From the NCBI RefSeq assembly GCF_041260155.1, contig NC_091934.1:41680694-41744693 (forward strand): 64,000 nucleotides of DNA. Direction: 5' to 3'. Shown here piece by piece: positions 6,179 through 49,559 of this stretch. Origin of the DNA: Ptychodera flava. Taxonomy: Eukaryota > Hemichordata > Enteropneusta > Ptychoderidae. A model generated the notes under the pieces. The model was given only the letters and a program-made list of their open reading frames with translations, had not been told where the DNA came from and made no database searches. The position numbers and the translations under genes were made by a program. The first letter of the stretch is position 1; each line of letters starts with the position of its first letter.

Positions 6179-6226
<48 letters not shown>

Positions 6227-12911: not shown

Positions 12912-13227
12912 ATGGCAGAAGGACCGAATAGTGACGACCATATTCGTCCATTGAATAAGCTGTATGAGAAGTTGAAACAGCAGTTGACTGCTGGGGACAT
13001 TGAGTCTATGAAAGACTTACTAAAGGGGAAACAACTAAATAGAGGAGATGAAGAGAAGGTGCCAAGAGCAGTAGATCTATTTCATTACTTAGAAGAAAAG
13101 GGTTACATTTCTGAAGACAATTTGGAACTGCTAAAACAAACGTTTCAAACCATGGAGAGGTCGCCCCTGGTAAAAACGGTGGACGCGTTTCTTAAAGATA
13201 CCTCTAGAAGGGAGGAGCAGCAGCCAC
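12912..13227 (+). CDS. Copy A exon 1: death-effector domain
   Basis: Encodes residues 1-105 plus one base of codon 106; donor CAC|GTAAGT. Residues 13-94 read as a six-helix DED: LNKLYEKL (14-21), DIESMKDLL (29-37), VDLFHYLEEKG (54-64), DNLELLKQ (69-76) and a final RSPLVKTVDAFL (83-94). The VDLF..L and SEDNL.LLK blocks closely resemble caspase-8 and FADD DEDs. The RxDL signature is only partly kept, with Pro at the Asp position. If intron 1 were retained, translation would stop two codons past the donor (TAG at 13,233-13,235), giving a DED-only protein of 107 residues. Confidence 0.85.
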
Positions 13228-16200
13228 GTAAGTAGTTCAGAGTAATCGTGTTTTGGTATCATTCACTATCTCAGAGTCGTGAGCAGTTTTATAACTGGAC
13301 CCATTGCTAAATATCGACACAAATATGCACCTGTGCGACAACAAAGATATTCATTCACGATACAGACACAAGACTGAAATAATAGAAATAGTCGAATATG
13401 ATGGTAAGAATTGCTATAATTTGCAGAATTTCTATGCTAAACAAAAATCACCATAATCAAGTAGTTGCAAGAATAAAGGGTCAAAAGCTCATATGCACTG
13501 AACTAAATATCATTCTTATTGCTGAAAATATGCAGTTTGCAATCTGAACGTGAAGATCATTTCGTCAAGTCACTGTTAGCCTTATTAGTCCCCTTCAAAT
13601 TTAGAGTTGGTAAATTGCGCTAAGTAATAATGGCCATTATTCTCAGCAGTGGCAAAATGCAAAACATTTTAAAATTAATAGAAAAATAGTCCATATTTTA
13701 TTGCTAGGAATAAGAACATCCTTAAAGTAGTTGAAGCCCCAAGGTCAGGCCAGGTAAATGTTAATAAAATGGTCTGGAAAACTACACTGGGTCCTGTAGT
13801 GACACTTTGTAAAAGTTTTTAGTATTTAAATCATCAGATAAACAGGAAAGTGTCTGAGAGGGCTAGGGGACGACAGGACTTTTCGTTTGCTCTGTTGAAA
13901 GAACATCTGTTAGTCAGCGAAGCTTCTATGGGCAAATTAACAAAGATGCCAAAGTTTGTCAGAAAACATCACAGGTTAATTTAAGTAGCTCATGTAACAT
14001 TGTCGTATGCTGACGTATTATATATCGATGGCAGAAATAAGACATGTACGCATTCACATTTTTGAGATTAGCGTGATTCGTTTAAAAGGGTGTATCTGAT
14101 TTGCTCACAATTTGTAAATCATAACGTTTATATTATTTTCGCTAAGAAATTCATAGTTTCCCTCTTGCAGGAGGAAGAGACACAACCGATGCGCCAAAAA
14201 TGGCTCCTCGAACCTCTACTGCCTCCAGTGATGAGATACTGAGAGAAACATTGAAGAAAGAGCCGAAGGTATCAAAAGTTGTCATGAAAAGTTGGTATAG
14301 CAAACATTTAACAGCAAAGAAAATTATTTGCAACACATCACCAAACGAAGAATAAGGCAAACATAGGAAACATTTAGAGTGCTTATTCAGTGCCTGCACA
14401 TGCTCTTCTTGTGTCAGATTCCCTTTAAATGAAGAATTATAAACAGAAGACGGATCAGACTAACTTTATAATGAAACCTTTCTAAGTCCATGTTTATCTT
14501 CAAACAATTTATTCGTGGAATATATGTCTTGACAAATTGAGCAATCATCTAAAGAATTAAAAATAAAATACTATGCTATGGTACTTGTTGGCTTTGCAAG
14601 ATAGAGAAAATAGTACAGCTTAAATTTAAATATCCCTGATAAGTGTTGTGAGGCAAAATTCTACAACAGGAACTGTGTGGACAATATTTTTGCCACCTCA
14701 AAATAAGTGCTAAGAATACGTTCTGCAAAAATAATTGAAATGATGTTCATGCACGCATATGGTGCAAAACAACAGTTGTAAATGCAATTAATCAACAGTG
14801 CCGTCCAGTATCATTATATTGTGAAGAAATAAGTTGAATGCTAGTCGAAGGGAACTATGTTGTCCTATGTTGTTCACCTTCGATTCCAATAACCCATACT
14901 GACTCATTCACGATGCTCTCGACAGTTCTCTAATGAGGTTTTATTGGTGCCATGAGAACCTGGTCTGTCATATTCTTCAGCTTAGATGATTTTTCTAGGG
15001 AAACGTTCAGTAAATATCTCGTGATGTGGCCAGCTAAATTGATTTTTGCTTGACACACCTGGCATACATTTTTACTCAAGGATAGCCATGTCTGGAACCT
15101 TCTCACGTCTCTCCATTATTGGCAACTTGCTTTATCTATGTTTCCTTGCATTCCTCTGTTAACTATAGAAGTCACTTATGTGTACAATCGAAAAATTAGA
15201 ACACTGGTTCTGAAAATTTAGTTCGAAGGCTGACCTATTTTAATTAATTCCCTGTACCTATACAGTTAGCTGCTAGGGAATTAGTTTAAATCTTAGCATA
15301 ATCTCGAGTTAGTCTTATCACTAAAATGAATGAAAGGGTGCTGTCTAATCTTGTGTATGTGTTCACAGCCATTTATTTGGTCTGTTTATGCTTTTATTTT
15401 ATTCTACATGGTGGACTCAGATGCCGAGGTAGCAAAATATCAGTCTTTTATAACACAGTTTCATGACTAGAGTTATTGCAGAATACTGTCATTACTGCGT
15501 GGTTAAACCTGAAGGCTGCGTACAGAATGATCTAGGCTACTGCAATGATATGCGATCGAATTGTTAGCGTTTGGTGGCATGGCCTTGGTCGAGTGTGATG
15601 GTCAATTGATTATCTTAAAGTGTGTGACTTCAAATAAGAATATACCGAATTACTACTGAGAATTAATATACAAGGTGCATCTGAAGATACACGGAGATCC
15701 TAAATGAATGCTTGACCAATCCCATGCAATGTGTCTCTACATCTTGACTATTGCGATGGAACTGTCACCATAAAAGGTGAACTAAGTTTACGATGTCCAT
15801 GATGCTCTCATTGAAGCAGCTTACACAGAAAACTATTCATACTTCAGATGCAATACATGCTGTTATCTATTTGGCTTGACTTATCTTACTTTTGCTGAGT
15901 CATTTATCATCAGAGTTCGATGAAAAATAAACTGTCCTAAATTCGTTTTAAGGTACATGTACTTCATTTAAAGGCAGATTTACCCGTAAGATAACATTTT
16001 TTTTTCAATTTTCCCTTTTACTTGGTAAACGTTTAACGTGATAACTCAGCAAAACCCAAATAAGAAGCGAAACTAAAGATGTTGAGTGGGTGTCATGCAG
16101 ATTTTGGCACAGCTTAGAAAAGGTGCAACGCTCTTGGCATCACACCACTACATCATAGATAAACGTGTTTGTACACTGACACGATGGCAAGCTTGTTGGT

Positions 16201-16499
16201 GTGGGCTATCGCTGGCCATTATATAAAACTTTGTAAGCATATTGTGAATGTCACAATACTTACTGTGTTATACGAACTTTGGAAATGTATGGTTGAATAA
16301 GCAAATCATGAAGTGTTAACTATTCTGCATGTTTGGATGTTTGACCTGCATCTTTGGTATAGCCCCTCCCAGTAACAGTGCTTAGGGAATGGTCAGTTCT
16401 TCGGCCTGGGGGTGGGGGGGGGGGGGCGGTGGATTAATTTTTGCCAACGTCAAAAAGTGGCTGATCCCCCGTATTCCAACTTTCGAAAAAAGGGTGACC

Positions 16500-16594
<95 letters not shown>

Positions 16595-19500
16595 ATAATA
16601 TGTATTTAATTTTTTGGGTATATTTTATACATTCAGTCATTCTGTGTTTGTGTTTTAATGAAATTGTTGTCATGTCAGTTGTAAGATAGACTCAACTTAA
16701 AAGAGTCAATTCTAAAGTTTGAATACAGTATTTGAAATGAGCTGTATGTATTCCAACTCTCTTTATGCATAACCAGATGTCCAGAACTGTTGTGAGAAAA
16801 ATGTAATTGTGAAATATTAGTGCATGTTGCTTTCTAATACTGAATTCCCCAAGAGAAAACAGAAAAGTATCAGGAATTTGTCATGCTTTTCATATGCACT
16901 GCAAGATTTCATAATGATTTGCAAAACAGATTTTCAATTCATAGACATCAAGATATTTCTGACATATATCTGTGATATATTAATTTACTGCGCCCAAAGG
17001 GCGCGCCGAAAAATATTTAATATCCAGAAGTTAGAATATTTAACATCCAGATATCTCTGATATATATATCTGATATATGCAAGTCATGTAGCTAGAGGGC
17101 ATGCTGAAAAATATGTTTGATATTTTAAATAAATGCGCCCGAAGGGCACACCGAAAAATTTTAGACATACAGATATCTCAGATACATATATGTCTGATAT
17201 ATTAAAGTTTTGCACTAGGACGGGGCTCTGAAAAATATGTCTTTATTATCAAAGTTACGCTCCCGAAGTGCGCGCCGAAAAATGAAACTGAATGATGAAA
17301 TTTGTGGCTGGCACATTGCATTTTGTGGAAGTATGAGCCCCTGTCGAAATTGAAAAACACATTGACCCCCTGTTGGGCATTTCAAAAACATGGTGACCCC
17401 CATCACCAAAGTAAAAACAGAGTGACCCCCCATGAATCCACCCCCAGGCCGAAGAAACCGACCAGTCCCTAAGGGCTTTTGTGTAGGGTAAGTGAATGTC
17501 AAAGCAGTACATCTGCACTGTATTTAGTACGTTTTGTTACTTTGATGTGAAAATGTATCCGAACCTACGATCAACTTCTTCTGCAGAAGATAGTAAGTGT
17601 CCCCAACGTATTCAGCCAATCAAGCGATGCAATACCTTAAGTATTATGGTATATAACTACGTAGCAATACAGGAGTCGTAAAAGCCATTATATAGTAAAA
17701 TGTAAGATCATTTGAGTACAATTGAGTCAGAGGAATAAATGACATTTTAAATTTGTTGCAGGTTGAAAAAGTTGGTTTGACATTTGAGAGTAATACGTTT
17801 AACCCGTAATTCGAATGAACCATGGGGCAAAAACTCACGTGCGCAAAACCGCACAGAAATACGTGTGCATTTCCATACGCGTTTGTACACGCATTACTTT
17901 GTTTGTACCGCTATCTGGGCGCACGCAAAAATTGATATCATGTGTTTTATAAGACTGAATACATCCTACATTACGATTCGCATTCACCATCAAGCTGTCA
18001 TCGAAGTTATTATTATAATTATTTGTTCGAAAGAGTTGACATGCAAGTTGCAAAGTGGAGCAGTAATATTGGTAATGGTATCGATATGTTATCAAGCAGT
18101 ATTCTTGACTTTATTATTTTTATTGTTCTGCCATTGCAAGTGATGTAAGTGCATTGATGTTAGTTATAAATTTGTTTCATACAATTGTAAGAACTTTAAA
18201 AGAACAAGAGAGCTATTTCTCAGAGTAGAAGTAAAACTCCTCTGGCATCATTATTACATCTCCCAATGTCCGTAACATTACAAGAATAACTGATCTCATA
18301 TACATGTATTCCCCTGACACACTGTCACGTTTCACATTCATTCCCTTTGGCAGATAATTCAAGACCCAATTCACGGGACTGTCCAATTAGACCCTGTGTA
18401 CATGGAAATCATCGACAAGCCAGAGTTCCAGCGTTTGAGGGAGATAAAACAGCTGGAACAGTGAGCTTTGTATATCCGGGTGCTGTCCACACACGATTCG
18501 AGCACAGTATCGGGTAATTAGTTTTAAGGTAGAACGCACCTCGGGGACAGAAATTCAGGCCTTCAAATTTTATCAATTTTCTTCTGACCTACCACTTGTG
18601 GGGGCTTATTTTGAAGCTCTTGGCGAAACAAAAGTTTTCACCGTCTTAGTTTTTCGAAAATCGAAAATTTTATTTTTTCTCATAGAGTTAACACAGGGAT
18701 GGCGGCCATTTTGGATTTCAAATATCGAGAAATCACAAGTTATTTGTCTCTCTAGTACCAAAGTTTGCACGGTGACCCCTGATTTTTATTCTTGCTTTGG
18801 TAAGAGAATGGTTGAAAGCTTCACTGAGGAAAGTTCGAGCAAAAGTTTAAGTCTTTCACTTTCGAGGTGCATATTACCTTAATTGAAGAAGTGCTGCAGC
18901 ATTTAACATAGACGCCCTAACACGCCTGTAAGGCTCGATACTTTTACAGGAATAATGCTTTATATTTAACTTTTATGCATAATTACATTTACCAGGACAT
19001 GCTACTTGGCCTTAAAAATGGTCAGGCATCTCAAAGGACGATATCAAGAAGATATTGGAATAACGAGGCGAGAGGAGCTATGCATTGGATTGGCAGCTCT
19101 GTGTCATGATTTGGGCAAGTTGCTTGATTTGAAAAGTATTTTTAGATTGTGACAGATAAGTACGTTTGAAAAGTCATTGACCAATTTTGTAATATCACAA
19201 ACTGTTGAGAAAGCAAGATGTTTATATATTTATTCTGATAAATTTTCTTCTCTCCAGGCCATGGTCCATTTTCCCATCTATTTGAAAACCATTTTCTTCC
19301 AAGATATAAACCATTGGAGTACGAAGATTGGTCGGTAAGTCTGAAAGTTTTACACATTGAAATATTGTAATAGTTATTGTAAAAGAATATTTACTCTGCC
19401 TTAAATCTTTGTGTCTAACTTTTAAACGACCAATTTCTCATGATCCAAAAACTTATGTTCACCGAAAACGGGCTTTAAATCTTCAAACTTGGGAATGTAT

Positions 19501-22500
19501 CTTTAAATGCACTAGAAGTAATGCAGAACTTTATCGGTGATGAATTAAAGTTAAGCGTTGTAAAATGAACGTATCGCAAAGATTTTCTCTTACACTCTTG
19601 TAAGACTTTCTAAGACCAGCTCTGGAGATTTGGTGAAAAGTGACATTTAATATTTTATTTTTTTATTATAACCTATGTTTACTTCTTAATGCTTAACATT
19701 ATTAGAAATGTGCATTTGGAACACTCTGAAGGTCGCAAAAAAATAACAGATGGTTTGGGGTGAAAATCGTGAGGTCGAGCATTGTGAAACCTTTGAACAA
19801 GTTCTAACAATTATGACATGGCTTCATATTTTGGAGAATTTGAATATATTGCGATGATCTTACATGTTATATTCTGTCCATTCAGCATGAACTTGGATCG
19901 ATCAAAATATTTGACAAAATGGTTGAAAAGTACAATCTAAAAGAGGTGTTTCGCCGCAAATATGATTACAAACTGAATGGACATGATTTTCATATGATTA
20001 AAGAAATGATTTATGGACCACTGGTGAAAAACGACAAACAGGAATACAAAAAGGTAAGATTTATTAACAACCCACATCCACCCATAATTTACCCTCTTGC
20101 ACAGTTAGACAAAAACTACCTTTAACAATTCGTAATGCTTCAACAACATGTGGATTTGATCAAGTGTAGTACCGACAGCGCAATTCTTCTTCTACTGATG
20201 ACTTCTCTTAATAATCAAGTCTAAATTTAGTATACAATGTAGTTTCACAATCTAAATCTATCAGACCTACATCAGAATACTTCACATGCGTGCACTACAT
20301 TTTAACTCGTCGATCTCTTTGTAAGCTAAATTTAATTTACTTGAAAAGATCAAGGTTTTAACAGCTTCAAAATTTAATGTAGAATATTGACTGTCGCACC
20401 TAGTTTGTTAACCAAAGAGAAATGAGTCGGTCGTCATTCAAGATTGTAGCAACGTCATTATGTACGATGTAATCCGTATTATAATACCATGCCCTGTCCA
20501 TTGCGTTTTAATTGGTCGAGCTGAATGGCGTGACTGCCCACAAATACACATTATATTACCATGCCCTGCCCGTCGCATTTTGATTGGGCGAGATGAACCA
20601 CGTGACTGACAACAAATGCACAGTAATGGTTTGTTTACACGTCCGTGAATATGAATAATAAGATTAAGAACTCAAAGTATCGTAACTTTACAGCTCAAAC
20701 GTAAATCATAATCAATCACAAAATAAAATGGAGCACTTGTAGGTCAAGTCGAGATACTTTTTTCTGAAAACATCTCCGGATTTGCCAATTTTTTACAGCG
20801 CGCGTGACAGTGCGTCGCGTATTGCTCAGTTTCTGGGGCCCAGTTGTAGTTCGCTCCTGAAATTTTCGGAAATTTTGACGGTTTTCTTGGGTTCGCTGAT
20901 AATATAATGGAAATAACAGACTCCGCTCTGACCATTAACGTTTATTTGTGGGCGCGGGCTCGAGGAAAGCCAAATTAACGGGCTCGGCAAGCCTCGCCCG
21001 TTAATTTTGGCTTTCCTCTCGCCCTTGCCCACAAATAAACGTTAATGGTCAGCGCGTCGCCCGTTATTTCTATAGTAATGGTTTGTTTTCATGCCCATGA
21101 ATATGAATAATATCGTAAACACAGTAACTTTACGGCTAAAACGAAAATTGTGATTTGTACAAAGATCATAATCAACCACAAAATAAAATGGAGCATTTGT
21201 GGGCCAAGTTTAGACGCTGTTTTTCAAAAAAATCTCCGGATTTGCAAAATTTTTGCAGCGCGCACTACTCACTGACAGGTTCTGGGGCCCCGTTGTCGTT
21301 CGCACGGGAAATTTTCGTAAATTTTGACGGTTTTTCGGGGTTCGTTGATAATATAATTGAAATAACAGACTCCGCGCTGACCATTCACGTTTATTTATGG
21401 GCAAGGGCGAGAGGAAAGCAAAAATTAACGGGCGAGGCTTGCCGAGCCCGTTAATTTGGCTTTCCTCTCGCCCTTGGCCATAATAAACGTTAATGGTCAG
21501 CCCGTGTCCTTTATTTCCATATTACGACTTGTACAATGATAACCAACAAACGTTTGGTTTTTGAAGAACATGGCCCTGCATTCTCATACTTCAGTACGCA
21601 TTAGATGAAGGCACAATGTGAGTTTTTCGATAAAGTGACCCTAGGAGCCACTCAATGATAGAGTGAAGTTGGTTATTATTTCGTATTATAAATTAATTCA
21701 TCTATTAACCTAGTGAAATTGACTCTCAACATGGCGAGACATTTGTTTGTATTTTAGCCTTTGTTTTAGATGCCCATAATCTAAATTCATTTATTTCGAA
21801 TTCGGCATCGGTCAAAACCGATATTTTCTCGTTTTCTCGTTTGGTTATAAGATTCTACCACTAGTGAAAAGCGTCTAGTCTACATACATTTAAGTGTTTT
21901 GTAACCATGCTTTTATATTATGTCACAGGCGGACACCTACAAAGCTATCCAGTCGGATCGACACTTCCTTTACCAGGTGGGAATGAGTACTTTTGCCATT
22001 TTATAAATCATACAAACGTACAACCACTGCCAATACAAAAAAGTACATGATTTCGTAAAGTCGGACGGTAATGCTATGCTGCAAGACTTTGTTCTGAGTA
22101 CATTCATCGATTTCACTCTCTTGGTTGATTTTTACATTAAAATCTTACTCAATCAATGTAGATTGTGTCTAACAAGGCAAACCAGATAGACGTAGATAAG
22201 TGGGACTATTTTGCACGGGATAGCCACCACTTAGGCGTGTCATCCAACTTCCTGCACGATCGTTTCATAAATTCGCACGGGTACTGCAAGACCCAAGAGA
22301 GGTTGAAAGAATGAGAAGCATATGCTACAGGGATAAGGTTGAGTATTATTTTATTAGTATTTGTAACATGATACAGAAAAAATATCCGAGCGTTGTTGTT
22401 GTAAGGTGTATAGGCCTACTTAAAGCTATAGTAATTTATATTTTTGAGGGCATCAAGGATATTATCATCGAAAATGTCAAATGTTATGATTTCTTTGTAT

Positions 22501-24351
22501 AGTAACATAATTTTCTCTAAACGTCCGATATAATCTTGTTATAGCTTTGTAAGTTACTGTTTATCTAGCCAATGGTCATATGTTCAGGATAACTGCTGTG
22601 TTGACGCTCACCTTCTCTAATATTCATCCATAATTACCTTTCGTTGACTCGCTGTTATGGATATTGTCACTTGGACAGCAACGACACGATAATCGGTCAT
22701 TGTGATTTCATCACATGAAATGTTTAAATCCATACTGCTTTACAGGAGGTACACAGTGCCTACGAGATGTTCCACACAAGATATCGTCTGTATCGTATGG
22801 CATATTTTCACCCGGTTACTGTAGCAGTTGATCTTATGTGAGTTTTTATCTGATCAAAGGTTGATGCTTTTTCTAATTACTCGACAATTAATTCTCTTGC
22901 AAGAATATCCCTCGTTTAGACATGTGTCAGACGAGGAACGGTCACTGAAATAGCATTGTACTAACACAACTACTCGCTGAGAGAGCAGTAGGAGGTAGGG
23001 GACTGCCCATTCAATCATAGGCCCAAATATTTCATATTTGGTCTGCATCAGCTGTCCCTTTAGGATCACAGGGAGGGGATCACATTTTAAGCCGAACACA
23101 CCGATGAATCTACCAAGAAATATCACCTTTTATTTCATTTTGAAAATTAATCAAAGAATCCACAATTTTTGAAAGTAATGGATTATTCACCGTTCCGAAG
23201 AAGCCAACTATCTCACAAAATCCCTTCAAAATGATATTCTGGCGTTCTCTTACCATTTGCCTCAACGTCATGACTCGGTCTACAGCACTATAAAGTCAGA
23301 GAAAAATACAAAACAAAAGTATCGATATTGTATCATCAAACTTTATTACACTATATTCATCGAACAACCCTAGAAAGTTGTATTGACAAGTGTTATCTTC
23401 TTCTGATGCGCATAAGGGGTATACTAGTCTGAAAAATTTGATTTTGATTTCAGTCCCTGATGCTGATTAGTATCAGGAAAACGTTGAAGGTCGTCATTTG
23501 CTAAACAAGCCTCCTAATTGTAAACTTGTGATCTTCACTGGTCTTTTCCTTTGAAGCTGATAGCCCCTAGCAGAAGAGCCCCATAGGGAATATCTTTGTT
23601 CCAGTCTCAAGTGAGCTTTTTTCCCAGTCTCAGGTGAAACCAAAAGGGCTGACTTTTTTTGTTGCTATGCTGGTATTTATAGCAAATGGGTCAACATCTG
23701 CTAGCTAATAACATTGCTAAATACCCATGCTACAGTAGTCTCAGGACAAAGTGTGATGTATTTGTATTGAAATATGAAGTCCCTATTTATTTATCCTACC
23801 AATTTGTTTTTGATCTCATCTCTTTCATCATTGAGCTCTGGGTCCAAAGCTATACTCAAAGTCTGTTGTTTGCCCATACATAATGTACACAAAATATATT
23901 TACGGCACTGAAAAAGGTCTATTTTCCACGCATATAGGAATATTCATGATGAAATGCTCTACCTTCAAACTGCATTTCGTGCTTGCCGTCAACTACACAT
24001 GCACAGAAATCTCAGCCTGGGGCAGTGCTATAACAGTACTATCTAAAAAGCACCCGTTTCCTCTATCGTAGACCACAGTGTTGTGGCACGTCCGAACCAC
24101 ATAGATGAGAGTAAAGACGTAAGGAAAATTTAGTTCTGTCTGTCTGAGGATTGCAAGATGTATGAAACTTAAGTAACATATATTAGTCAATCAATCAATC
24201 AAACAATCAATCAATCAATCAATTAATCATTAAAAGTAAACAAATAAATAAATAAATAAATAAATATATAAATATAAATATAAATAAATAGATGATAATA
24301 TACAACGACAACAACAACAGCAATAACAGCAACAAACAAGAACAAACAACG

Positions 24352-24384
<33 letters not shown>

Positions 24385-24871
24385 ATAAGAATAATAATGA
24401 TTAATGCTGTAAGTGATTGAAGTCATTAATTTCAGGATCTGTGATGCACTTATGAAAGCAGCAGATCACCTGACACTGGCGAAGCCGAAGAAGTCGGAAG
24501 GGTTAGTTAAAGTTTTATTAAATATCCTTTTCCCCAGTATTCTTTCATACCTGCGATGGAATATGGCCTACCTGTCAGGTGACAAGGTACATTACCATGT
24601 GTGTGAAGCTGGAAAAACAGTGCATGCATCCAACAGAGATATTACTGAATATTGTGAACAAATGCGTAGAGTAAAGAACGTATGTGGTGATCTGATGTTA
24701 AAAAGAGACGCTGCTTCCACAAATAAGGAATCAATAAATCAATAAATCATTACAAATAAACAAATAAATAAATATATAAATAAATAAATGATAATATACA
24801 ACGACAACAACAACAGCAATAACAACTAAAGAAGAAGAACAACAACAACAACAACGACAACAACAACGACG

Positions 24872-24906
<35 letters not shown>

Positions 24907-27900
24907 AATAATAATAATAATAAGAAGAAGAATAATAATAATAATTAATGCTGTAAGTGATTGAAGTCATAAAATTTCAGGATCTGTGATGCACATATGG
25001 AAGCTGCAGATCACCAGACACTGGCGAAGCCGAAGAAGTCGGAAGGGTTAGTTAAAGTTTTATTTAATATCCTTTTCCCCAGTAATCTTTCATACCTGTG
25101 ATGGAATATGGCCTACCTGTCAGGTGACAAGGTACATTACCATGTGTGTGAAGCTGGAAAAACAGTGCATGCATCCAACAGAGATAATTACTGAATGTTG
25201 TGAACAAATGCGTAGAGTAAAGGACATATGTAGTGATCTGATGTTAAAAAGAGACATGGCTTTAGTGAGAATTAATTCTCAAAAGCAAGTTTCCACAAAT
25301 AAGGAAAATAACACACTATAAGATGGGATCATATTGACAGGATCATAAAGGAGGCAATCCAATACAATACCCAAGAGAGCACTAGATAGAATACTAGCCA
25401 GAAGGTGATTGACTAGTTTGGCAATTTCAAAGCCTGTGGTTGCAATATTTTGTAATGATAAAGTTTACCAATCAATTAATCATTTCACATTATTCAAATT
25501 TCCTTATTCAAATCATGTATCCAGAGTGGAAAGACCGCTACATACAACATAATACATGATACATAATTACAAATTTCTGATCATTTCTAGAGAGAGATTC
25601 CGTATGAAAGATATTCTGAAAGACATGGATGCTTACCTAATGCTAGACGATACAATCTTATATGTTATCCGCCGTTCATATCTAAATCCTAAACTCAATG
25701 AAGCCCGAAATATACTTGAAAGGATTCAAAAACGTGAATTGTACAAACTAGTTCGGAGGATCAAATTGGAAACGATACTGACATCAACGAAAGTGTAAGT
25801 TTTGTAGTGTATACTACCTTGTAGATCAGCATCATGGGATAAGACTTTAACAAAAAACTAGATGTGAAACGAAGGTCTTTATGTCACATTCCACCTTCTA
25901 TAAGTGTCCAGCATATGAATGTTTCAGTACTATGGTAAATATTGCCTTCTGCATTCGTAGCTCAAACATTTGTTTCAGTTAGAACTGCAGACTTAGACAA
26001 TGAATGTGAGAAAATCACACGCAAACCAAATTGACATAAAGTAAGGATCATAGCAACCTAATCCAATTAATTGAAATGAAAACTTCGACAAAATAGCTGC
26101 CTTTTTGCAAAACCTTGTCAAATGAAAAGAGAATTAATTTATTCACAGTAAGTTCAATATCTAGCCACGAATTGCATCCACGTAAAGGCCCCATATATAA
26201 ATATACGATGCTACCTGGCTCTATATTTTATGACATCTCAAACAAGATGACAAGAATGGCATACAATACACTGCCCTTATCTGCTTATGCGAATCTTGAA
26301 TGGTACAATGAGGAGCATGGCTTAATAATGGCCTTTGACACAAAAGAATCGACCAAACTCTCTTGGCGAAATTTGATCATAGCGTAAATCAAACATACAT
26401 GAATACGCATATCCTTTAGCTGTGAAATCAACTCGATATCATTGGCATTCTTTTTCCCTAGCTCGTCAAAATTGGAGACATCGTAGGATACGATGACAGC
26501 TTAAAAGCTAAAGATATATGTTTTAAGGTAACCCACTGAATGATTGCCAAAGACATATATGAGAGAATATGCATACAAAAATGAATACAATAACACAATA
26601 ACATTGTCACCGTCTGACTATTTACATGCACCTGGCAATAGAGAAAATATTAATTTTGACACGTGGAACATTTTCGCCAAATTTCAGAAATTTACGAAAG
26701 GATGAGCTTTTGTTTCCTAAAAAGGGACTTTTAAATTGTCTTCGTAACTGTAGATGAGAGCAGATGAGAGAAGCTGTCTCTAAATTTTGTCCCATCTGCG
26801 CAGATGGTAAAAATTACGTAAACACTTATTGTAGAGGATTTTATCGAAAGAAGGCAAACATGAGGTTAGCGAAGACTTACTACAAATGGCCTTTTACCAC
26901 GCAGATTTTGGAATCCGGCCGTACAAAATCTAGACGTAACGCTTAGCATGAGAACATAAAATGCTAATTTGATATTAGTTTTGATATAACTTATCCATAT
27001 GAGTACTGGCATTTTATCGATAGCTCTTGCAACTTTAAATGATGTGAATTAATATTAAGTGTCAACAGTTATTGCTTATTTTTGTTTTGCGCCCGCAATT
27101 TATGTTTACTATCATACAGATTGTAAGTCTGGACTATGGTATGGGCAACAAAAATCCTGTTGAATACGTTCTGTTCTATGACAAGAGGGATCACATCGCA
27201 AAAATAATGTTACAGAATGAGGTAGAGTTAACCATGTTTTTCTGTCAAACATGTGCATACTACCATGCGTCTTTTAATTTTCAAAAACAACAATTTCTTC
27301 AAACGATTCCCAGTGTTTAGCATTCCCTGTAAGATGCAATTGTTTTCTGATATTGTTAGACGTCACGTTATTTACGTCTTTATTAGCTGATTGATCAATT
27401 ATTTATCTCACTTCATTATCTTGATTTTACGCAGTAATATATTAACGGGACGGTCGCCCTCAAATGCTATTGCGTAATTTCTGTTTGTCTTATCTAGTGA
27501 TATGATTCAATATCAGGTCATAGGAACGGCTTAATGTAAATTAAGATAAATTAATTGTATTACCTTTGTGCATTTTTTGCAAAGGTGTTCCTCTCTCCTC
27601 CCGACGACTTTCCAAGAACGTCACTCTTTATTTATGTTAAGGACCCCACCAAGATGTCCGTAGCTTCAGACTGTGTCGATAAATGGGCTGAAGACAAACG
27701 ATGGATACCTGTGAGATATCATTTAAATGGTTTACTTAACTTTCGAAAATGAGTATTTTTTGTAATTTAATTCCCCCAGGGCTTCTGTTAAAATCGCTTT
27801 TATTACATCCTTGTGTCTTTGTTAATATTTTGACGACTGGTAGAAAGGTTTTTCACTTGAGAAGATCTTCATCGATACTGCTGCTGTTAATTAACTTTGT

Positions 27901-29383
27901 AGTATTGTCGATTATTGTTGTTGGGCACGCATATTATTGCTTCTGCTGATGGAGATGTTATTTATTGCTACCCTATGTTCCCACATTCATATTAACGCAG
28001 ACGTATGAGGTACTTCATAATTCGGACTATTTTCTTTGATTACAAGTTGTCTATGAAGATATGTTTCACGTACAGATTAAGCTGATATATACATGTTAAA
28101 GAATGTTTTATTTAAAATTTGTCTTGTCTTGAAACAAAACACTAATACATTTGCTTTCAAATTTGGTTTTTCAGTTTTAGTGATAACTTAATTATGTTAA
28201 ATTGACATAAACATAAAATTGATGTTATGTCTTTCGTTAAAATGCCTTGCCGGTTGCATGGAACTTTTTGTGCAAATGCTAATTTTAGAATTTCATGGGC
28301 CACATTAAGGTGGCGTTGCACTTAATTAAGACACTTTTTTCAAAGCAAATTTCTAATTAATGATGACATGAAAACCCCTCATACATTTTCAAAAAGCAGT
28401 TCAGTAGAGCAGCTATAGTTTACTGGAATGATGGAGGGTACAATGTGAAGTAGAAAACCTAAATTCAGGTATTACTGAAAACAGTCAATTTAAGTCAAAA
28501 ATGTGATACTACTTTATGAATTTTATTATCTCATTTGAAATGATGATACATGTAGAAAGAAACGAGAATTTTGTTTTGCACTGTAATCTATTTTCATTCG
28601 CAAATGGTAGGGGTGAAAAGTTGACATTCAAAAAGTTATTCAAATCATGATAAGCAAAATTGAGTGAATCTTATTAAAAACGTAAGAATTTTATTGAGAA
28701 ACAAAATTATTGTTTTGATTTATATATTGTTTTGATGTATAATATTTCAAAATCATAATCTGAAACTTTCAAACTATTTGACTCAGCCAGAGCAAAGATG
28801 TTTTTGAAATGTTGAAATGGGGAGAAATTAGAAGCCAAGAATCGGGTGATTTACTTAAAGTTGCAAAATTTACACAATTTAAATTTATCATTAACTTACG
28901 ACTGCTTGTCATGCAAAAAAGTGAACTCAACCGATATTTTAATCTTTGGGTTACAAATAAATGGAAATTGATTGAGTCTTTGGAAAAACGTGGTTTTTAG
29001 GAAAACACGCTGCGTTATTAAAAGCCCATAACATCAGATCACTTTCATGTTTGTCGATGTTTATTCTGAAATCAATGCGTAGCTACCTGACCAGAAGGAT
29101 GTTTGTTTACCAGCAGAAAACAACCTTACACTTGAATTGAAAAAAATGTTACTCTATTATTTGATTTATCGCGAGGATTTAAGTTCACGCCTTTTAAACA
29201 TACAATGCATTTTATACCGATATCATCGTTTCTTGTACTTTTCAGAAAAGTGAAAAAGTGACATCCCCAGTTAACGAGACCACAGGACCGCAATGTTTAC
29301 CCCAGAAGTCTAAGAAAAGAGCATGTGCCGGCGAAGAAGGATCAAATAAAACAAAGCGTGCTCAACAATACGACCAAGAATGA
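12912..29383 (+). CDS. DED-HD dNTPase, SAMHD1-like, copy A (spliced gene, 15 coding exons)
   Basis: Predicted to hydrolyse dNTPs to deoxynucleosides and triphosphate, by homology to SAMHD1. The spliced product is about 652 residues (human SAMHD1: 626). Order: DED at residues 13-94, charged linker to 138, HD domain from 139, regulatory/C-terminal lobe, and a Lys/Arg-rich tail. The catalytic tetrad is visible as His189 (HTRFEH), His229-Asp230 (CHDLGHGPFSH) and Asp341 ([11 protein letters not shown]). Residues matching human allosteric-site positions are kept: Lys138, Asp159, Gln164, Arg167, the RDK motif and RELYK (human RNLFK). No SAM domain is present. The ATG has A at -3 and G at +4. Three exons (3, 8, 11) each lack one base relative to copy B or the family frame; splice sites look intact. 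This is either a recent pseudogene or a sequence with consensus errors. The SAMHD1 identity is secure; the activity of the DED fusion is inferred. Confidence 0.88.
13228..14170 (+). other. Copy A intron 1
   Basis: GT-AG intron of 943 bases between the DED exon and the linker exon. I see no repeat or gene in it. Confidence 0.7.
14171..14268 (+). CDS. Copy A exon 2: linker
   Basis: Acceptor CTTGCAG, donor AAG|GTATCA. It completes codon 106 and encodes 32 more residues, ending LKKEPK. Its 3' half aligns with copy B exon 2 (MxPRT...S.E.L.E...KEPK), which anchors the pair as homologous exons. The final Lys corresponds to the residue before human Val117 in the allosteric pocket. Confidence 0.85.
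14269..18353 (+). other. Copy A intron 2
   Basis: About 4.1 kb, against 1.4 kb in copy B. The excess is partly an inverted-repeat element at 16,385-17,469 (listed separately). No exon was recognised in the remainder. Confidence 0.6.
16382..17472. mobile_element. Inverted-repeat element with G-rich subtermini and internal modules
   Basis: Body about 16,385-17,469. Left terminus GGGAATGGTCAGTTCTTCGG...GGGGGTGG and right terminus CCACCCCC...CAGTCCC pair over some 35 bases; flanks are TTA on the left and TAA on the right. Inside are a (TA)n run (16,501-16,598) and modules of GCGCCC.AAGGGCGCGCCGAAAAAT at about 16,989, 17,132 and 17,261. Styled like the 33,760-35,574 element (GGGA..GT.CAGTT ends, poly-G, GTGACCCCC). 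Confidence 0.7.
18354..18513 (+). CDS. Copy A exon 3: start of HD domain
   Basis: Acceptor TTGGCAG, donor ATCGG|GTAATT. Encodes IIQDPIHG... to ...HTRFEHSIG and carries the first catalytic His. The exon is 160 bases against 161 in copy B: one G is missing at CTG(G)GAACAG, just after IKQL, which would bring an immediate stop. The rest of the exon is strongly conserved at protein level. Confidence 0.9.
18524..18882. mobile_element. TTAA-flanked MITE, copy 2, in copy A intron 3
   Basis: Body 18,528-18,878, flanked by TTAA on both sides (18,524-27 and 18,879-82). Terminal inverted repeats read GGTAGAACGCACCTCG and, reverse-complemented at the right end, GGTAATATGCACCTCG. TTAA target sites are typical of piggyBac-type insertion, but the termini do not begin CCC, so the superfamily is uncertain. 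Related copies lie at 3,205-3,547 and about 29,921-30,213. Copy B intron 3 lacks it and is only 117 bases. Confidence 0.75.
18996..19114 (+). CDS. Copy A exon 4: HD motif
   Basis: Acceptor ACCAG. Encodes TCYLALKMVRHL... to ...LCHDLG, with catalytic His229 and Asp230. It ends at GATTTGG followed by GCAAGT, a GC donor. Splicing there to the exon at 19,258 restores HDLGHGPFSH exactly; no nearby GT keeps the frame. Confidence 0.92.
19258..19334 (+). CDS. Copy A exon 5: HGPFSH segment
   Basis: Acceptor CTCCAG, donor TCG|GTAAGT. Encodes [17 protein letters not shown]... to EDWS. Aligns with human HGPFSHMFDGRFIP. The His residues of this strand contribute to the active site in SAMHD1. Confidence 0.92.
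19886..20053 (+). CDS. Copy A exon 6
   Basis: Acceptor TTCAG, donor AAG|GTAAGA. 56 codons, [12 protein letters not shown]... to ...MIYGPLVKNDKQEYKK. Aligns with human HEQGSVMMFEHL...IKEQIVGPLE. Two codons shorter than the copy B exon. Confidence 0.9.
20054..21928 (+). other. Copy A intron 6
   Basis: 1.9 kb. Contains a 76-bp direct repeat pair near 20,486-20,622 and two tandem hairpin-ended units (20,623-21,520, listed separately). The equivalent intron of copy B is 10.9 kb. Confidence 0.6.
20623..21520. repeat. Two tandem ~450-bp units ending in long hairpins
   Basis: Unit 1 is about 20,623-21,074 and unit 2 about 21,075-21,520. Both start GTAATGGTTTGTTT and end with a strong inverted repeat centred on CGGGCTCGGCAAGCCTCGCC or its inverse, with arms spanning TTAATTT.GGCTTTCCTC and CATTAACGTTTATT. 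The hairpin centre is inverted between the two units. Probably a non-autonomous hairpin element duplicated in tandem. Confidence 0.7.
21929..21976 (+). CDS. Copy A exon 7
   Basis: 48 bases, acceptor GTCACAG, donor CAG|GTGGGA. Encodes ADTYKAIQSDRHFLYQ, matching human KGRPENKSFLYE just before the [11 protein letters not shown] exon. Same length and phase as copy B exon 7. Confidence 0.85.
22162..22337 (+). CDS. Copy A exon 8: third metal-ligand motif
   Basis: Acceptor ATGTAG, donor AAG|GTTGAG. Encodes [20 protein letters not shown], with catalytic Asp341, then [14 protein letters not shown] and the allosteric-site YRDK. It is 176 bases against 177 in copy B: one base is missing in ATAAATTCGC, where the family needs a Lys codon before TTC. 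The frame is otherwise conserved to the donor. Confidence 0.9.
22746..22837 (+). CDS. Copy A exon 9
   Basis: Acceptor TTTACAG, donor TTAT|GTGAGT. Encodes [25 protein letters not shown]... to VDL plus AT of Met. Aligns with human LYDMFHTRNSLHRRAYQHK. Tyr408 occupies the position of human Tyr374 at the substrate pocket. The following Gln and Lys of human are Phe and Pro here. Confidence 0.9.
22838..24435 (+). other. Copy A intron 9
   Basis: 1.6 kb. The last 250 bases are simple repeat (TCAA, AAAT and CAA tracts, 24,187-24,400). I recognise nothing in the rest. Confidence 0.6.
24436..24501 (+). CDS. Copy A exon 10, first of two tandem versions
   Basis: 66 bases, acceptor TTTCAG, donor GAAGG|GTTAGT. 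Encodes ICDALMKAADHLTLAKPKKSEG across phases 2/2, so it can be skipped or repeated without changing frame. Aligns with human MITDAFLKADDYI. A second version lies 545 bases downstream. Confidence 0.85.
24740..24945. repeat. Compound AAAT/CAA/AAT microsatellite
   Basis: Second copy of the microsatellite preceding exon 10 (first at 24,187-24,400); part of the 545-bp duplication. Confidence 0.9.
24981..25046 (+). CDS. Copy A exon 10, second tandem version
   Basis: 66 bases, acceptor TTTCAG, donor GAAGG|GTTAGT. Encodes ICDAHMEAADHQTLAKPKKSEG. It differs from the first version by Leu-to-His, Lys-to-Glu and Leu-to-Gln. Splice sites are intact, so the pair could be mutually exclusive, both included, or one could be dead. 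Whether either is preferred cannot be told from sequence. Confidence 0.75.
25591..25794 (+). CDS. Copy A exon 11
   Basis: Acceptor TTTCTAG, donor AAAGT|GTAAGT. Encodes ERFRMKDILKDMDAYLMLDD... to ...[15 protein letters not shown]. Aligns with human IDDMEAYTKLTDNIFLEIL...RNLFKYV; Arg-x-Leu-x-Lys of the GTP-binding allosteric site is kept. It is 204 bases where the frame and copy B imply 205: one base appears missing in an A-run near GGAAACGATAC, beyond which the reading DTDINES matches copy B in phase. Confidence 0.87.
25795..26461 (+). other. Copy A intron 11
   Basis: 667 bases. It contains a 90-codon open frame (26,115-26,387) with no recognisable similarity and no counterpart in copy B. Nothing else seen. 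Confidence 0.5.
26462..26527 (+). CDS. Copy A exon 12
   Basis: 66 bases, acceptor CCCTAG, donor AAG|GTAACC. Encodes LVKIGDIVGYDDSLKAKDICFK. Same length and phase as copy B exon 12 (DVKLEDIV...). Corresponds to the human VLLDVKLKAEDFIVDV region. Confidence 0.82.
27120..27221 (+). CDS. Copy A exon 13
   Basis: 102 bases, acceptor CATACAG, donor GAG|GTAGAG. Encodes IVSLDYGMGNKNPVEYVLFYDKRD... to LQNE. Matches human [22 protein letters not shown]. In frame with no defect. Confidence 0.9.
27585..27710 (+). CDS. Copy A exon 14
   Basis: 126 bases, acceptor GCAAAG, donor CCT|GTGAGA. Encodes VFLSPPDDFPRTSLFIYVKD... to ...KRWIP. Aligns with human [20 protein letters not shown]...NFTKP. Confidence 0.88.
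27711..29245 (+). other. Copy A intron 14, with dispersed repeat
   Basis: 1.5 kb. The stretch 28,309-29,020 is a diverged copy of the sequence at 39,015-39,735 upstream of copy B (shared landmarks TTTCAAAGCAA, TTTCAAAAAGCAG, AAAGTTGACATTCAAAAA and a closing ACGCTG(C/T)GTT). Probably a non-autonomous repeat inserted independently at both sites. Confidence 0.65.
29246..29383 (+). CDS. Copy A exon 15: C-terminal tail
   Basis: Acceptor TTTTCAG, ends TGA at 29,381-29,383. Encodes KSEKVTSPVNETT... then KSKKRACAGEEG and KTKRAQQYDQE. The two basic clusters look like a bipartite nuclear localisation signal; in human SAMHD1 the signal (KRPR) is N-terminal. A Ser-Pro near the exon start sits roughly where human has the CDK site Thr592-Pro; this equivalence is only inferred. 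Confidence 0.85.
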   Translation, partial: KSEKVTSPVNETTGPQCLPQKSKKRACAGEEGSNKTKRAQQYDQE

Positions 29384-40294: not shown

Positions 40295-40400
40295 GACATC
40301 CCCTCTGACAAGAGGAACATATACAATGGATACTCATTCAATGACTCCTCGTACTACCAGTGGTGAGAAACTGAAAGAATTCGTGAGCAAAGAACCAAAG
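40295..40400 (+). CDS. Copy B exon 2: lead and start codon
   Basis: Acceptor TTTTTAG, donor AAG|GTATTA. From ATG at 40,326-40,328: [20 protein letters not shown] then SKEPK. Aligns with copy A exon 2, but the region before the shared part has a different length modulo three, so it could not follow a copy-A-type exon 1 in frame. This supports initiation inside the exon; ATG at 40,341 is an alternative start. Confidence 0.75.
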
Positions 40401-43400
40401 GTATTAAAAAAGCCATAAAAGTAGATTTTTGCGAAGTTTGAAATAAAGGACAAACCTATTTCCTACACATCACCTTAGTTTAAAAAAATCAATCAACAGG
40501 GACGTTTGTTTGGCTTGTCCTCCCGCCCCCGTGCTTGTCCTGTGACAGTTACCTTTTAAGGGAAGAATACAAGAAGACAACCTGATGAACTTAATTAATT
40601 AGAATAATGTTGACCCCTATGCTTATGTTTAAAATATTCATTCATTCAATACATTCTTTCACAAACTGAGCGATTAATTAAAGATAACAAATGACCAAAA
40701 ACTAAGATATAGTATTTTCTTTCCACTGATAGAGAGAAAAAAACTCATGAACTTTTACGTTCAGTGGAGTACTTATTTAGGAACAGGTGTGCTCAATTAA
40801 TGCGGTGTATAGTCTGGCTGCTTGATATTACAACAATAGGGACCGTAAAAACATAGGTAAAGGCTAACAGCTATAAACATGAAAATGTTGATTACTCTCC
40901 AAGTGATCAAATGAAATTTAGGAAAATACAGACTTCCCGAAAAATGACGCAGAAGTATGACGCGCATGCAAAGAATGGAAAACGACAATTTTACCTGCAA
41001 TAATGGACAATAGCTTAACAACTGTCGTTACATTCTGTAGAATGTAGTAATGTTTGGTTAGCTAGTTAGCATTTTATTATAGTGACATGGTTTCACATAC
41101 CTAAATAAATACGTACACTTGATTAAACTTTGGTAAGCTTGCCATTTGATGGTATACCAGTGACTGCGTTACTGTATAATCTATAAAAGACAAAATGAAA
41201 TTCGTCTTCAACAGTATTTTCCTGACAAAGAGTATATATTTTCTTTCTTCAACCTGTAAGCAAGAGTATCGACCAGTTTCAATTCTCAACTTTAATGCGT
41301 TAACATACATCCACGCTAAAGAAAGAATATTTGATGTATAATTGATATATAAATTGATTTAACACCACAAGTTCAGCGAGCTGATAAGTATATTTGATCA
41401 GTACAGCCAGAATCTAGTCATATCGGTGGACAATGAGCTTTATGTCCAGAATTGGTGTGTTTGATATGCAAATCCTGCAGCCACTATTGACCAGTCTAAA
41501 TACAGTTACACGTCTCAACAAGTGTAAATCCAGATTTTATTCAAAACAGTTCAAAGGGAAGATGCAAAAGGGAATTCCATAGTTCAGATAATGATGTTGA
41601 TGAAGGGTCACACAGAATAACTTCATTCATTGTGCTATGGTCATTCATACCGCATTTCGTTCATACAAATACAAGAAGAGCGGTGTTCTATAATGGCGAA
41701 TGAACTTTACCTGACATTGTCATTTAGCGTCGTGTCCTTGACGAATATTTTTGCCAACGCTCACGTTGATTTTTCTGACAGGTATTTCAAGACCCAATTC
41801 ACGGAACCGTTGAGCTTGACCCTGTGTACATGGTAATTATCGACAAGCCAGAGTTCCAACGTTTGAGGGAGATAAAACAGCTAGGAACAGTCAGCTTTGT
41901 ATATCCAGGTGCTGTCCATACACGATTTGAGCACAGTATAGGGTAATACATTGCTTTATAGTATTGTCATTGTTGCGTCTTTAATACCAAAGTGTAAAGC
42001 TTAATACCTTTTGCCATTAGCTCATAGTTATTGTCTTCCTGTATTATTTCATTCCATAGCACATGCTACTTGGCCTTGAGGATGGTCAGGCATTTAAAAG
42101 AAAAATATCAACAAAGTCTGGGAATAACAAATGAAGAGGAGTTATGCATTGGATTAGCGGCGCTGTGTCATGATTTGGGCAAGTGGCTATCTATGAAACC
42201 TTTTTATTCTGGTTTGAGAGTTCAGTACTTTTGAAAATTCTTTAATGACTTTTGAAATTACATAATGTTTTAAACTTAGTCATCATACTGGTAAATTTTT
42301 ATACAGATACATCTATCTCTTCAGGTCATGGTCCATTTTCCCATCTATTTGATGATCAGTTTCTTCCACGATACAAACCTCTCGGATACGAAGATTGGTC
42401 TGTAAGTAGGAAGTTCTTATCAATTTTGTCCAATAAGTGTGGCCAAAATACTAGGCTCCTCATGATTTTGGACGCCCTTTTAAATTGACGATAACCAATG
42501 ATAGACAAGCTCATATTTACCACAACCGAGTTTCCAAACCTTCGTTTTCTGCATAAATGCCAGGCAATGAAATGATGCAGAACACTGTTTAGCAATTAAC
42601 CATCGCCATGCTAAAAGCGACTAAGTAAAGCAATTCTTTTTCCATTTTCACGGACACTCTAAATCCATATTAGATTATGATAGGTTAAAATGTTTTATGC
42701 ATCGTAAAGTAAACGTAGTTTTTACCTGTAATTTACGTCCTGGGTATTTTGGTTCATTAGCTGAATATGGTGGACAATTCTATCGGAAATACCTTCCAAA
42801 GTTCTAAAACGAATAAAGAAACAACTGTTTACTGCTTTCTGTCAACATTTTTCAGTTCAGAATTCTATAGCCTATAAAGAAGGTCGACCAAACTATAATA
42901 AACTTTCTATTTTGGAAAACTTTATTTATTGTAGTCTTGTAACGTGCAATTCTTTCAATTCAGCATGAACTGGGATCCATCAAAATATTTGATGAAATGG
43001 TTGATAAGTACAATCTCAGAGGCGTGTTTAGGACTTATGGCTACGAGATGAATGGCCATGACTTTCATTTGATAAAAGAAATGATATATGGTCCACTTGT
43101 CCGAAGTGACGACATTGAGGAAAGAGAATACAAACGGGTAAGCTGGTTGGTCAGCAACCTACACTCCCCATTCATGGGCTCTCTCGCATACCAAAAAGAG
43201 CACCTGGTGTCAACATTTGGAATTGTATAACGGGATTGGAGCATAGACCCTTTCTATGGTGTCTATGATTGGAGCAAGCGTAATGTTAACAAATATCGTA
43301 CTTTACTCGGATTTGTGCTCAAAAGTACAGTACTGATCAAGTCAAAATTTGGTATACAACCGCACCTTAATCTCTAACATTTGTGAAGGTAGTTATTTTA

Positions 43401-46400
43401 CCAGAGGGAACAAAAGTTTCGCTTGCAGACTTTTTTATAGCTTGACATTGCAGAAATTCAAATGTATTCACAATTTAGTGCTACAAAGTTACTCGCGTAA
43501 GCCCAGTTCATTTAGTATACCGACATTGCTGTTTACAGCGTGTCACCCCTATTTGTGAACAATCAACCCTATTTGTAACAAAACTTAATTTTCAAAAAAA
43601 CTTTGCCGTATTTGTTGAAATATTAATAAAATATGCATATTTGTATGTTTGGGGGCAATTTTCTTTTTTTTTCTTTGTCAAAACTCATTTTTCCGAAACT
43701 GCTTTTGTTACAAATAGGGGTGACATGTCAACCCTATTTGTAACAATTAACCCTATTTGTAACAAAACCTAATTTTAAAAAAACCTTGGCCGTATTTGAT
43801 GAAATCTTGATGAAATATACATATTTATATCGTTTGGGCAATTTTCCTTTTTTTCCTGGTCGAAACTCATTTTTTTCCGAAAATGCTCGTTAGATTAAAT
43901 TTCGTTGTGCAGGTTCCTAGGGATAAGAGGCCTACTCGTAAGATATAATTAAGTCGTGCAGATACATGCCAAAAGTTTGTTTCGGGGCAATTTTCACCAA
44001 TTTCGGTCAAAAATGTTAAAAATCTTGTTTTCTGACCGAAATCATACTAAACCTATATGGGGTTAACTTTTGTTACAAATTGGGTTGATTGTTACAAATA
44101 GGGTTGACACGTCATCCTATTTGTAACAATCAACCCTATTTGTAACAAAATTTAACCAACTTGTAACAAAACCTAATTTTTAAAAAAAACTTGGCCGCAT
44201 TAGATGAAATCTTGATGAAATATACATACTAGTATGTTTTGGGGCAATTTTCCTTTTTTTCCTTGTCGAAACTCATTTTTTCCAAAAATGCTCGTTAGAT
44301 TAAATTTCGTTGTGCAGGTTGCTAGGGATAAGAGGCCTACTCGTAAGATATGATCAAGTCGTGCAGATACATGCAAAAAGTTTGTTTCAGGCAATTTTCA
44401 CCAATTTCGGTCAAAAATGTTAAAAATCTTGTTTTCTGACCGAAATCTTACTAAACCTATATTGGGTTAACTTTTGTTACAAATTGGGTTGATTGTTACA
44501 AATAGGGGTGACGTGTCACCCTATTTGTAACAATCAACCCTATTTGTAACAAAATTAACCAATTTGTAACAAAACCTAATTTTCAAAAAACATTGGCCGT
44601 ATTTGATGAAATCTTGATGAAATATACATATTGGTATGTTTGGGGGCAATTTTTATTTTTCCTTGTCGAAACTCATTTTTTTCCGAAAGTGCTCGTTAGA
44701 TTACAGGTTATCGTTCGCACGGTTAAAGCGATGTATTCGTTGCTTCGCTTCGATAAAGTTTGTATGTGCGATTGTGGCGATGGGGCTCTATGATCAAGGT
44801 TGCTAAGTCTGACTCGGTAAAGAAGCAACAACAATCGTGTATTTGCAATGAACTCGCTAGGTTTATTGCTGCACTGACGGTGCGAGGGAAAGAACTGAAC
44901 AAGACTAGAAAATGTCGCAAACTAAACATGCTTGCAACGAACGTGATAGACGGGACGGGACATGATTGGCGGGAGATTCTAGTCCAGTGATTGGTAGAAA
45001 GTCTTTGAAGAGTCTGATGGCTGAATGTATCGCATCCAGGATCCGCATGATCATATTACTACAAAGAGTTCAAATAAACTGTTATTTGTCTTCGACATAC
45101 TCCCCAACGATGAAAAAGTAAAGGAAAGATTTACATTTGATTAAAATTAAACGAATGAAAATGTTAAACTCTGATTAGATTACGTTCGGTATGAAAGAGT
45201 TAGATGAGATTCGAAAGTCTGTGAGTTCCGACATGAGTGCATCTCTGGATGATTTCCTGATGTTTGCCTTCTCGTTGTTGGCAATACATCGTATTTCGTC
45301 TGATGGTGTGATTCTCGATGATCAGGGCTCGAAATTAACTTTTTCCTGGTAGTACCATCGGCTACCATTTTCTGAAGTTGGTAGCCCAGCGACAAGGTCT
45401 GGTAGCCCTGCATGAATGAAGAGGTTTTTTTGTAAAGGATATTTTTATTTATATCTAGACAATGAAAAATTTATGTTGCATGATTCTATCCCGGAAGTGA
45501 ATTTTCTAGTCATTTGACATCATTACCTGCAGATCATAGCCCTAGGAGAACGGTATAGCATGTTTAGTGGACAACGGTGACGCCTCAAAGTTTGACGACC
45601 TATTCATACATACCGTGACGCAGACTCGGCTTATATGCAAAGTTTGATGTTCGCCATGACAACGACTTTTCACTCAGCACGTGTAAACATAACATGGCTA
45701 AAATAGATTGGTTATGAATTTCAGGATGACAACTCGGTAGTCATGTTCCAAATACTTTCGTGGCTATTTTGTATATATTTCTCCACGATAGTACACGATC
45801 ATGGGATGATCTCGTACACTTCGGAAAGCATAATTTGTGGATGGCCCGACAGCTTTTTCTTTGCAGTTTGAATAATTTTGTGTTTAATTGTGATTGTTCC
45901 ATTGTGATTAAATAACTATGAAAATGAATTTTCATTGGCCATCATTTCCCGAGCCTGTCATCCTGGTACATCAGTTCAGATAATGATATTTATTGAAAGT
46001 TTGTCGCAAAAAAACTTGACTGCACTGTCGCCTCTTAATTGCATAATAAAGTTATAGTATGGCCTTTTTATGTCTAGCTGGGTTGACTGTATGAGCGTCG
46101 GTCATCTCACAGCGATCAACATGTCGCCCACTAAGTAATGTCATGTCCCGGGCTTTGGTAGTCCGTGTGGGCTACCATTTCATGGGTTTTGGTAGCCCAA
46201 GGGAAAAGTTGGTAGTCTGTGGATGTGGGACTACCGCTAATTTCGAGCCCTGATGATGGTGTGTCGTCCTCTTGCTTCAGTCGAGATATCAATCGTAATA
46301 CATACGTAGTAATGAAATTGAATGAGAAATGTTCTGTGTAGGCCTATATGGCATCCCAACGTCGACTGGAGGGTTGGTCTCCGTACTTGGTGAGTCAGCG

Positions 46401-49520: not shown

Positions 49521-49559
<39 letters not shown>

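Follow-up and report, generated by a model that had tools for sequence, protein, structure and literature searches.

In a 64,000-nucleotide stretch of the Ptychodera flava genome (hereafter the window), we found a gene on the plus strand, gene A, that we are inclined to read as the member carrying a death-effector domain (DED) exon in a pair of tandem SAM-less dNTPase paralogs. Its main transcript would encode a DED, a linker and an HD domain of the SAMHD1 type. The two parts differ in what can be said of them, and we treat the DED exon, the enzyme, the tandem sister gene and the junction in turn.

Exon 1 of gene A (12,912..13,227, plus strand) comprises 105 open codons and one further base; it begins with an ATG (A at -3, G at +4) and closes at the donor CAC/GTAAGT. 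Residues 18-93 match the Pfam DED profile PF01335 with E = 2e-14 and a score of 54.0 bits, the cut-off being 35.9. The match spans profile positions 5-79 of 82, and the curated cut-off is passed over the whole domain. SAM, CARD, PYD and Death models are absent among the 4 Pfam families listed for gene A at E-values up to 10, a scan in which HMMER filters drop most matches above about E = 0.1; the 3 non-DED families listed are all weak (E of 0.056 or more). Of the 33 distinct sequences that a phmmer search of the PDB with exon 1 listed at E-values up to 10, the first 28 are chains with a DED (caspase-8, FADD, PEA-15 and cFLIP, with caspase-8 best at 3.7e-5), and the 5 in the last ranks are unrelated. 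An AlphaFold2 model of exon 1, computed with no alignment, has six helices and low confidence (pLDDT 58.5, pTM 0.33), and its structural matches were unspecific, the 50 entries shown including none with a DED. It is thus the sequence that carries the DED call, and on the profile and PDB matches exon 1 almost certainly encodes a DED. The original prediction of a DED-like fold was thus borne out, and the profile search it had proposed as a check gave DED rather than SAM or no fold. A SAM domain in exon 1 was ruled out as well: Pfam assigns the exon to DED, and the SAM regions of three enteropneust proteins (P0039, P0034 and P0024) had no match in the window at E ≤ 0.1.

The SAMHD1-like part of gene A is made up of 14 further exons (2-15). 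Its central piece matches SAMHD1 chains with a best E-value of 7e-51 and the Pfam HD family with E = 2.6e-9, and the Pfam scan gave no match to an N-terminal SAM domain. In an alignment with human and enteropneust proteins, the metal ligands H167, H206, D207 and D311 are all present. Nine of the 11 further active-site residues scored (R164, H210, H215, H233, K312, Y315, D319, R366, H370, Y374 and Q375) are kept, H370 being replaced by Tyr and Q375 by Phe. Allosteric site 1 retains D137, Q142 and R145; at allosteric site 2, R333, R352 and K354 are kept alongside the changes N119Q, R372M and K377P. In SAMHD1 the 11 active-site residues have substrate and catalytic roles, and those of the two sites allosteric ones. 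There is hardly any doubt that the core belongs to the SAMHD1 family, and we predict that its product is a dNTP triphosphohydrolase whose second allosteric site is altered.

All exons lie on the plus strand. Exon 2 (14,171..14,268) has the phase-1 acceptor TTGCAG, encodes the linker GRDTTDAPKMAPRTSTASSDEILRETLKKEPK with a Met that is a possible internal start, and shares 47% identity over 32 residues with part of gene B, the sister gene described below. The catalytic motifs are spread over exon 3 (18,354..18,513; allosteric-site residues and H167 in RFEHS), exon 4 (18,996..19,114; H206 and D207 in CHDLG), exon 5 (19,258..19,334; H210 and H215 in HGPFSH), exon 6 (19,886..20,053; H233 in HELGS), exon 8 (22,162..22,337; D311, K312, Y315 and D319) and exon 9 (22,746..22,837; R366 in FHTR, Y374 in MAY). 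The remainder are exon 7 (21,929..21,976), exon 10 (24,436..24,501), exon 11 (25,591..25,794), exon 12 (26,462..26,527), exon 13 (27,120..27,221), exon 14 (27,585..27,710) and exon 15 (29,246..29,383), which contains the stop codon. A GC-AG intron directly follows CHDLG in both paralogs (19,114 in gene A, 42,178 in gene B). A tandem duplication (24,200-24,709 and 24,720-25,255, 86% identical) doubles exon 10 of gene A; both exon 10 and its duplicate, exon 10b (24,981..25,046), keep their splice sites and phase, which would allow one or the other, or both, to be spliced in. The idea that an exon had been missed between exons 11 and 12 was given up: gene B and the related protein P0006 join these exons directly, and exon 11 of gene A is frame-broken.

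Gene B (40,314..61,887, plus strand), which the original prediction left unmentioned, is a tandem paralog of the same SAM-less SAMHD1-like kind. Exons 2-15 of gene A all have homologous counterparts in it, and its protein is 82% identical to that of gene A over 334 columns. The counterparts of exons 2-8 lie at about 40,314, 41,782, 42,060, 42,325, 42,964, 54,080 and 55,535, and those of exons 9-15 at about 56,093, 56,470, 57,300, 58,639, 59,200, 59,822 and 61,744. DNA searches and sensitive protein searches of the window found no DED exon for gene B. Upstream of both genes lies a 3-kb block with 70% identity (4,015-6,893 and 36,156-38,959), and most introns no longer align. A coding role for this block is unsupported; the tblastx pieces shown hold stops, and two ORFs had no Pfam match above the cut-off. 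In gene B, a tandem duplication (57,406-57,775) has doubled the 3' part of exon 11, and the first of the two copies holds the frame break of that exon. Intron 6 of gene B contains a minus-strand ORF (50,692-51,882) with a DUF1759 match (E = 1.8e-38) and a below-cut-off match to the DUF1758 peptidase; it is probably a retroelement, which we take to be of the BEL/Pao type. The segment 47,071-50,704 is a long repeat open in several frames, and it looks like a tandem repeat, not a gene.

The reading frames of both genes are interrupted as assembled. In gene A, a single base breaks the frame of exon 3 at about 18,455, ahead of H167, that of exon 8 at about 22,270 and that of exon 11 at about 25,770; exon 14 has a compensated pair of breaks near its start, at about 27,590-27,625. 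The frame spliced from exon 1 stops after 174 residues, at 18,464, before the first catalytic His. In gene B, exons 3 and 8 are unbroken, exons 11 and 13 carry frame breaks, and exons 9 and 10 do not meet in phase. The original prediction of a full HD domain with its catalytic tetrad therefore needs qualification: the four residues are all encoded, but the frame that should carry them is not continuous and the word full does not apply to the assembled sequence.

These interruptions raise the question of whether gene A, and perhaps gene B, is a decaying pseudogene, so that the DED-HD frame would yield no working enzyme. Breaks in four exons of gene A, and in two exons of gene B together with its phase mismatch, speak for decay, as does the position of the pair among repeats and a retroelement-like ORF. 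On the other hand, dN/dS between the two genes is 0.17 (bootstrap 0.12-0.24; dS 0.77) over 354 codons in 13 blocks, drawn from exons 3-5, 7-10 and 12, with exons 6, 11 and 14 used in part. No in-frame stop occurs in the blocks tested, which comprise 1,692 nt of gene A (outside exons 2 and 14) and 1,350 nt of gene B (outside exons 2 and 13). Both results therefore indicate purifying selection on the pair for most of its history, and the dN/dS value suggests recent function or assembly error, not old decay. Furthermore, the breaks in both genes involve one or two bases, several of them within short runs of one base, and breaks in such runs are typical of uncorrected long-read assemblies. Most splice sites are intact, including the GC donor common to both genes. 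We infer that the frame breaks of gene A are mostly assembly errors or very recent, and we consider a decaying pseudogene rather unlikely, while ranking it first among the alternatives.

To place the two genes, relatives were drawn from the best 120 of the 2,900 proteins (among 7,998 scored) that a protein database search returned at E ≤ 1e-20. A midpoint-rooted tree, in which the 2 genes of the window stood beside 24 proteins picked by hand from those best 120 (26 rows), grouped genes A and B with four enteropneust SAM-less proteins (support 100/100), next to P0006 of Ptychodera flava (support 100/97), a placement that by itself marks an enteropneust hemichordate as the likeliest origin of the window; the tree tool warned that the long branches of P0018 and P0047 within this SAM-less group may have been joined falsely. 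The SAM-HD proteins of the same three enteropneust species were placed elsewhere in the tree. RNA genes that might have shown the organism were sought as well, and none turned up. Among ten relatives scanned with Pfam, SAM plus HD was detected in P0024, P0034 and P0039, and HD without SAM or DED in P0006 (below cut-off), P0015, P0018 and P0047; the remaining three gave no DED match either. The idea that the DED of gene A takes the place of the SAM domain of SAMHD1 is thus a slightly misplaced comparison: gene A groups with SAM-less proteins, and a SAM-HD protein coexists in the same species.

P0006 is the closest relative among the best 120 of 2,900 (48% identity) and has about 78 residues before the core, with no known domain. 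Its counterparts of H206, H210, H215, D311, K312 and Y315 are replaced, and therefore it looks like a pseudo-dNTPase, whereas gene A keeps all six. P0018 begins 10 residues ahead of the HD core, and P0015 28 residues ahead. Precomputed domain assignments contain no DED in any of the best 120 of the 2,900 relatives, and protein searches with the DED region found no DED-HD architecture among the matches listed, with none in 243 at E ≤ 0.001 in one search and none in 137 at E ≤ 10 in the other. This absence is weak evidence, because such searches reach a protein only if it has been predicted and shares exact words with the query.

The junction between exons 1 and 2 carries the case for a fusion. 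The donor at 13,227 agrees with the consensus at 8 of 9 positions, and the unspliced frame of exon 1 stops at 13,235, only 8 nt beyond it. With 20 donors of at least 8/9 on the plus strand of the window, the chance expectation of one in the 45 nt that separate the profile match from the stop is 0.014, or 0.0047 when phase is included (a post hoc count). The acceptor at 14,171 (TTTCCCTCTTGCAG, TTGCAG) is of phase 1 and restores the frame, and exon 2, on the same strand and 943 bp downstream of exon 1, then runs in frame into exon 3. Before exon 3 there are 43 phase-1 pyrimidine-rich candidate acceptors; those with the longest open continuations (14,147, 14,171 and 14,174) are three starts of one exon-2 frame. 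Another partner for exon 1 within introns 1 and 2 was sought unsuccessfully: none of the 29 plus-strand ORFs (at least 40 aa) starting there has a death-fold, TRADD-N or caspase domain in Pfam. A TRADD-N domain between DED and HD was likewise absent in a Pfam scan of the joined translation, although Pfam may miss a divergent TRADD-N. Taken together, the rarity of the donor, the ranking of the acceptors and the lack of a partner domain in the intron ORFs argue that exon 1 very probably undergoes splicing, most likely to exon 2. We judge it likely that 13,227 and 14,171 are joined in one transcript. The proposed in-phase splice to a linker accordingly fits in phase and splice signals, the join itself being read from genomic sequence.

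A serious rival to this joined transcript is that exon 1 is a small stand-alone DED gene, ending at the stop at 13,235, and that a plain SAM-less dNTPase starts at the Met of exon 2. This Met is aligned in both copies (PKMAPRT in gene A, HSMTPRT in gene B), close to where P0015 and P0018 start, and it has a good start context in gene A; in gene B its context is weak, and a good one belongs to a second Met, five codons ahead of it. Gene B shows no exon 1 in the window and has no acceptor at the place aligned with that of gene A exon 2, its own exon 2 acceptor being a different one, and the homology between the two genes, which extends upstream to 6,893/38,959, resumes only at 14,160/40,301. The four SAM-less relatives show no DED. 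It is the missing DED exon and acceptor in gene B, together with the aligned Met near the relatives' starts, that give an enzyme starting in exon 2 its weight. Several observations oppose it: a strong donor ends exon 1 where chance would rarely put one, with just 8 nt of unspliced frame left to read; a phase-compatible exon follows on the same strand within 1 kb; and the closest relative, P0006, also has a sizeable segment before the core. We therefore regard two independent neighbours as unlikely, somewhat more so than decay of gene A.

Exon 1 could also belong to another gene, with a partner beyond the introns searched and the dNTPase gene nested within it or merely downstream. DED exons are often shuffled units, which together with the lack of such an exon in gene B would be in keeping with this scenario. 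It appears improbable, as none of the intron ORFs has a recognisable partner domain and exon 2 is the nearest good phase-compatible continuation. Finally, that the DED exon came to lie beside gene A through an assembly or haplotype artefact is the least credible of the alternatives: the coding sequence is indel-rich and the window holds tandem repeats, but exon 1 with its flanks (12,700-13,450) has no second copy in the window, giving short weak matches only.

We thus return to gene A as a DED-bearing dNTPase gene. The phase-1 DED exon, about 0.9 kb upstream of exon 2, was probably captured, because the sister gene shows none. The main transcript of gene A would then most likely encode DED, linker and HD. 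In such a protein the DED could, through homotypic contacts, cluster the enzyme or target it, so that dNTP depletion takes place at an immune assembly of death-fold proteins, or it may help to keep the oligomer of the enzyme together. In the caspase-8 alignment from the PDB search, the Phe of the FL motif is Asp in exon 1, and RxDL reads RSPL, with Asp changed to Pro. We take the FL-motif Phe (helix 2) and RxDL (helix 6) to be central to FADD/caspase-8 contacts and typical of canonical DEDs, not defining for them. Because both positions are changed, it is doubtful that the gene A DED joins a FADD/caspase-8-type chain directly; it more likely associates with itself or with a partner of its own. 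The recruitment to DED assemblies originally suggested is thus weakened in its canonical form. While the domains themselves are well recognised, we put forward only tentatively that gene A gives rise to a functional fused DED-HD enzyme. Equally tentative is the wider proposal that this lineage has a working dNTPase of the DED-SAMHD1 type, which a death-fold assembly would recruit or activate, and whose DED exon was captured after the tandem duplication, gene B having stayed without it.

In vertebrates, dNTP depletion acts as a stand-alone restriction mechanism. If both the transcript and the enzyme are real, gene A would wire dNTP depletion directly to a death-fold adaptor, a direct effector output of DED signalling, and the tandem paralogs with and without DED would form a clean pair for testing the contribution of the adaptor. 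If instead the two parts are mere neighbours, or the copy is dying, the locus would reflect ordinary turnover in a domain-rich genome.

Among known systems, the enteropneust SAM-less proteins (P0006 and P0018 of Ptychodera flava, P0015 of Glandiceps talaboti, P0047 of Saccoglossus kowalevskii) resemble gene A in having an HD core and no SAM, and differ from it in having no DED; P0006 in addition lacks H206 and D311. SAMHD1 itself (the human construct P0061 and Ptychodera P0039) shares with gene A the metal ligands, most substrate residues and allosteric site 1, whereas gene A has no SAM, carries H370Y, Q375F, N119Q, R372M and K377P, and falls in a separate tree group. A SAM-less SAMHD1 is described from a fungus in PMC12042053, where nonmammalian SAMHD1 orthologs are all said to lack SAM; the three enteropneust SAMHD1 proteins P0024, P0034 and P0039, contrary to that statement, have a SAM domain. 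On the side of the adaptor, FADD, caspase-8, PEA-15 and cFLIP share the DED profile and sequence likeness with exon 1, but the DED of the FADD and caspase-8 types adjoins a DD or a caspase, and that of exon 1 an HD enzyme.

The literature matches listed (titles and abstract starts) contain no report of a direct DED-SAMHD1 fusion, and to this extent the original remark that no described DED-HD enzyme was known stands. It is qualified by PMC8195603, which reports lineage-specific expansions of proteins with Death-like and TRADD-N domains whose variable C-terminus in the sponge Amphimedon can be HD, as well as oyster proteins combining DED-TRADD-N with several enzyme domains. The Amphimedon proteins place a death-fold module before an HD phosphohydrolase-type domain, as gene A does; they carry TRADD-N, which was not detected in gene A, and their HD family is not given there as SAMHD1. 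DED-NACHT and other hybrids are likewise reported for amphioxus in PMC2575513. If real, the DED-SAMHD1-type fusion of gene A would be a further case of known domain shuffling, and a parallel to the fusions of death-fold and effector domains that PMC8195603 describes in sponge and bivalve proteins.
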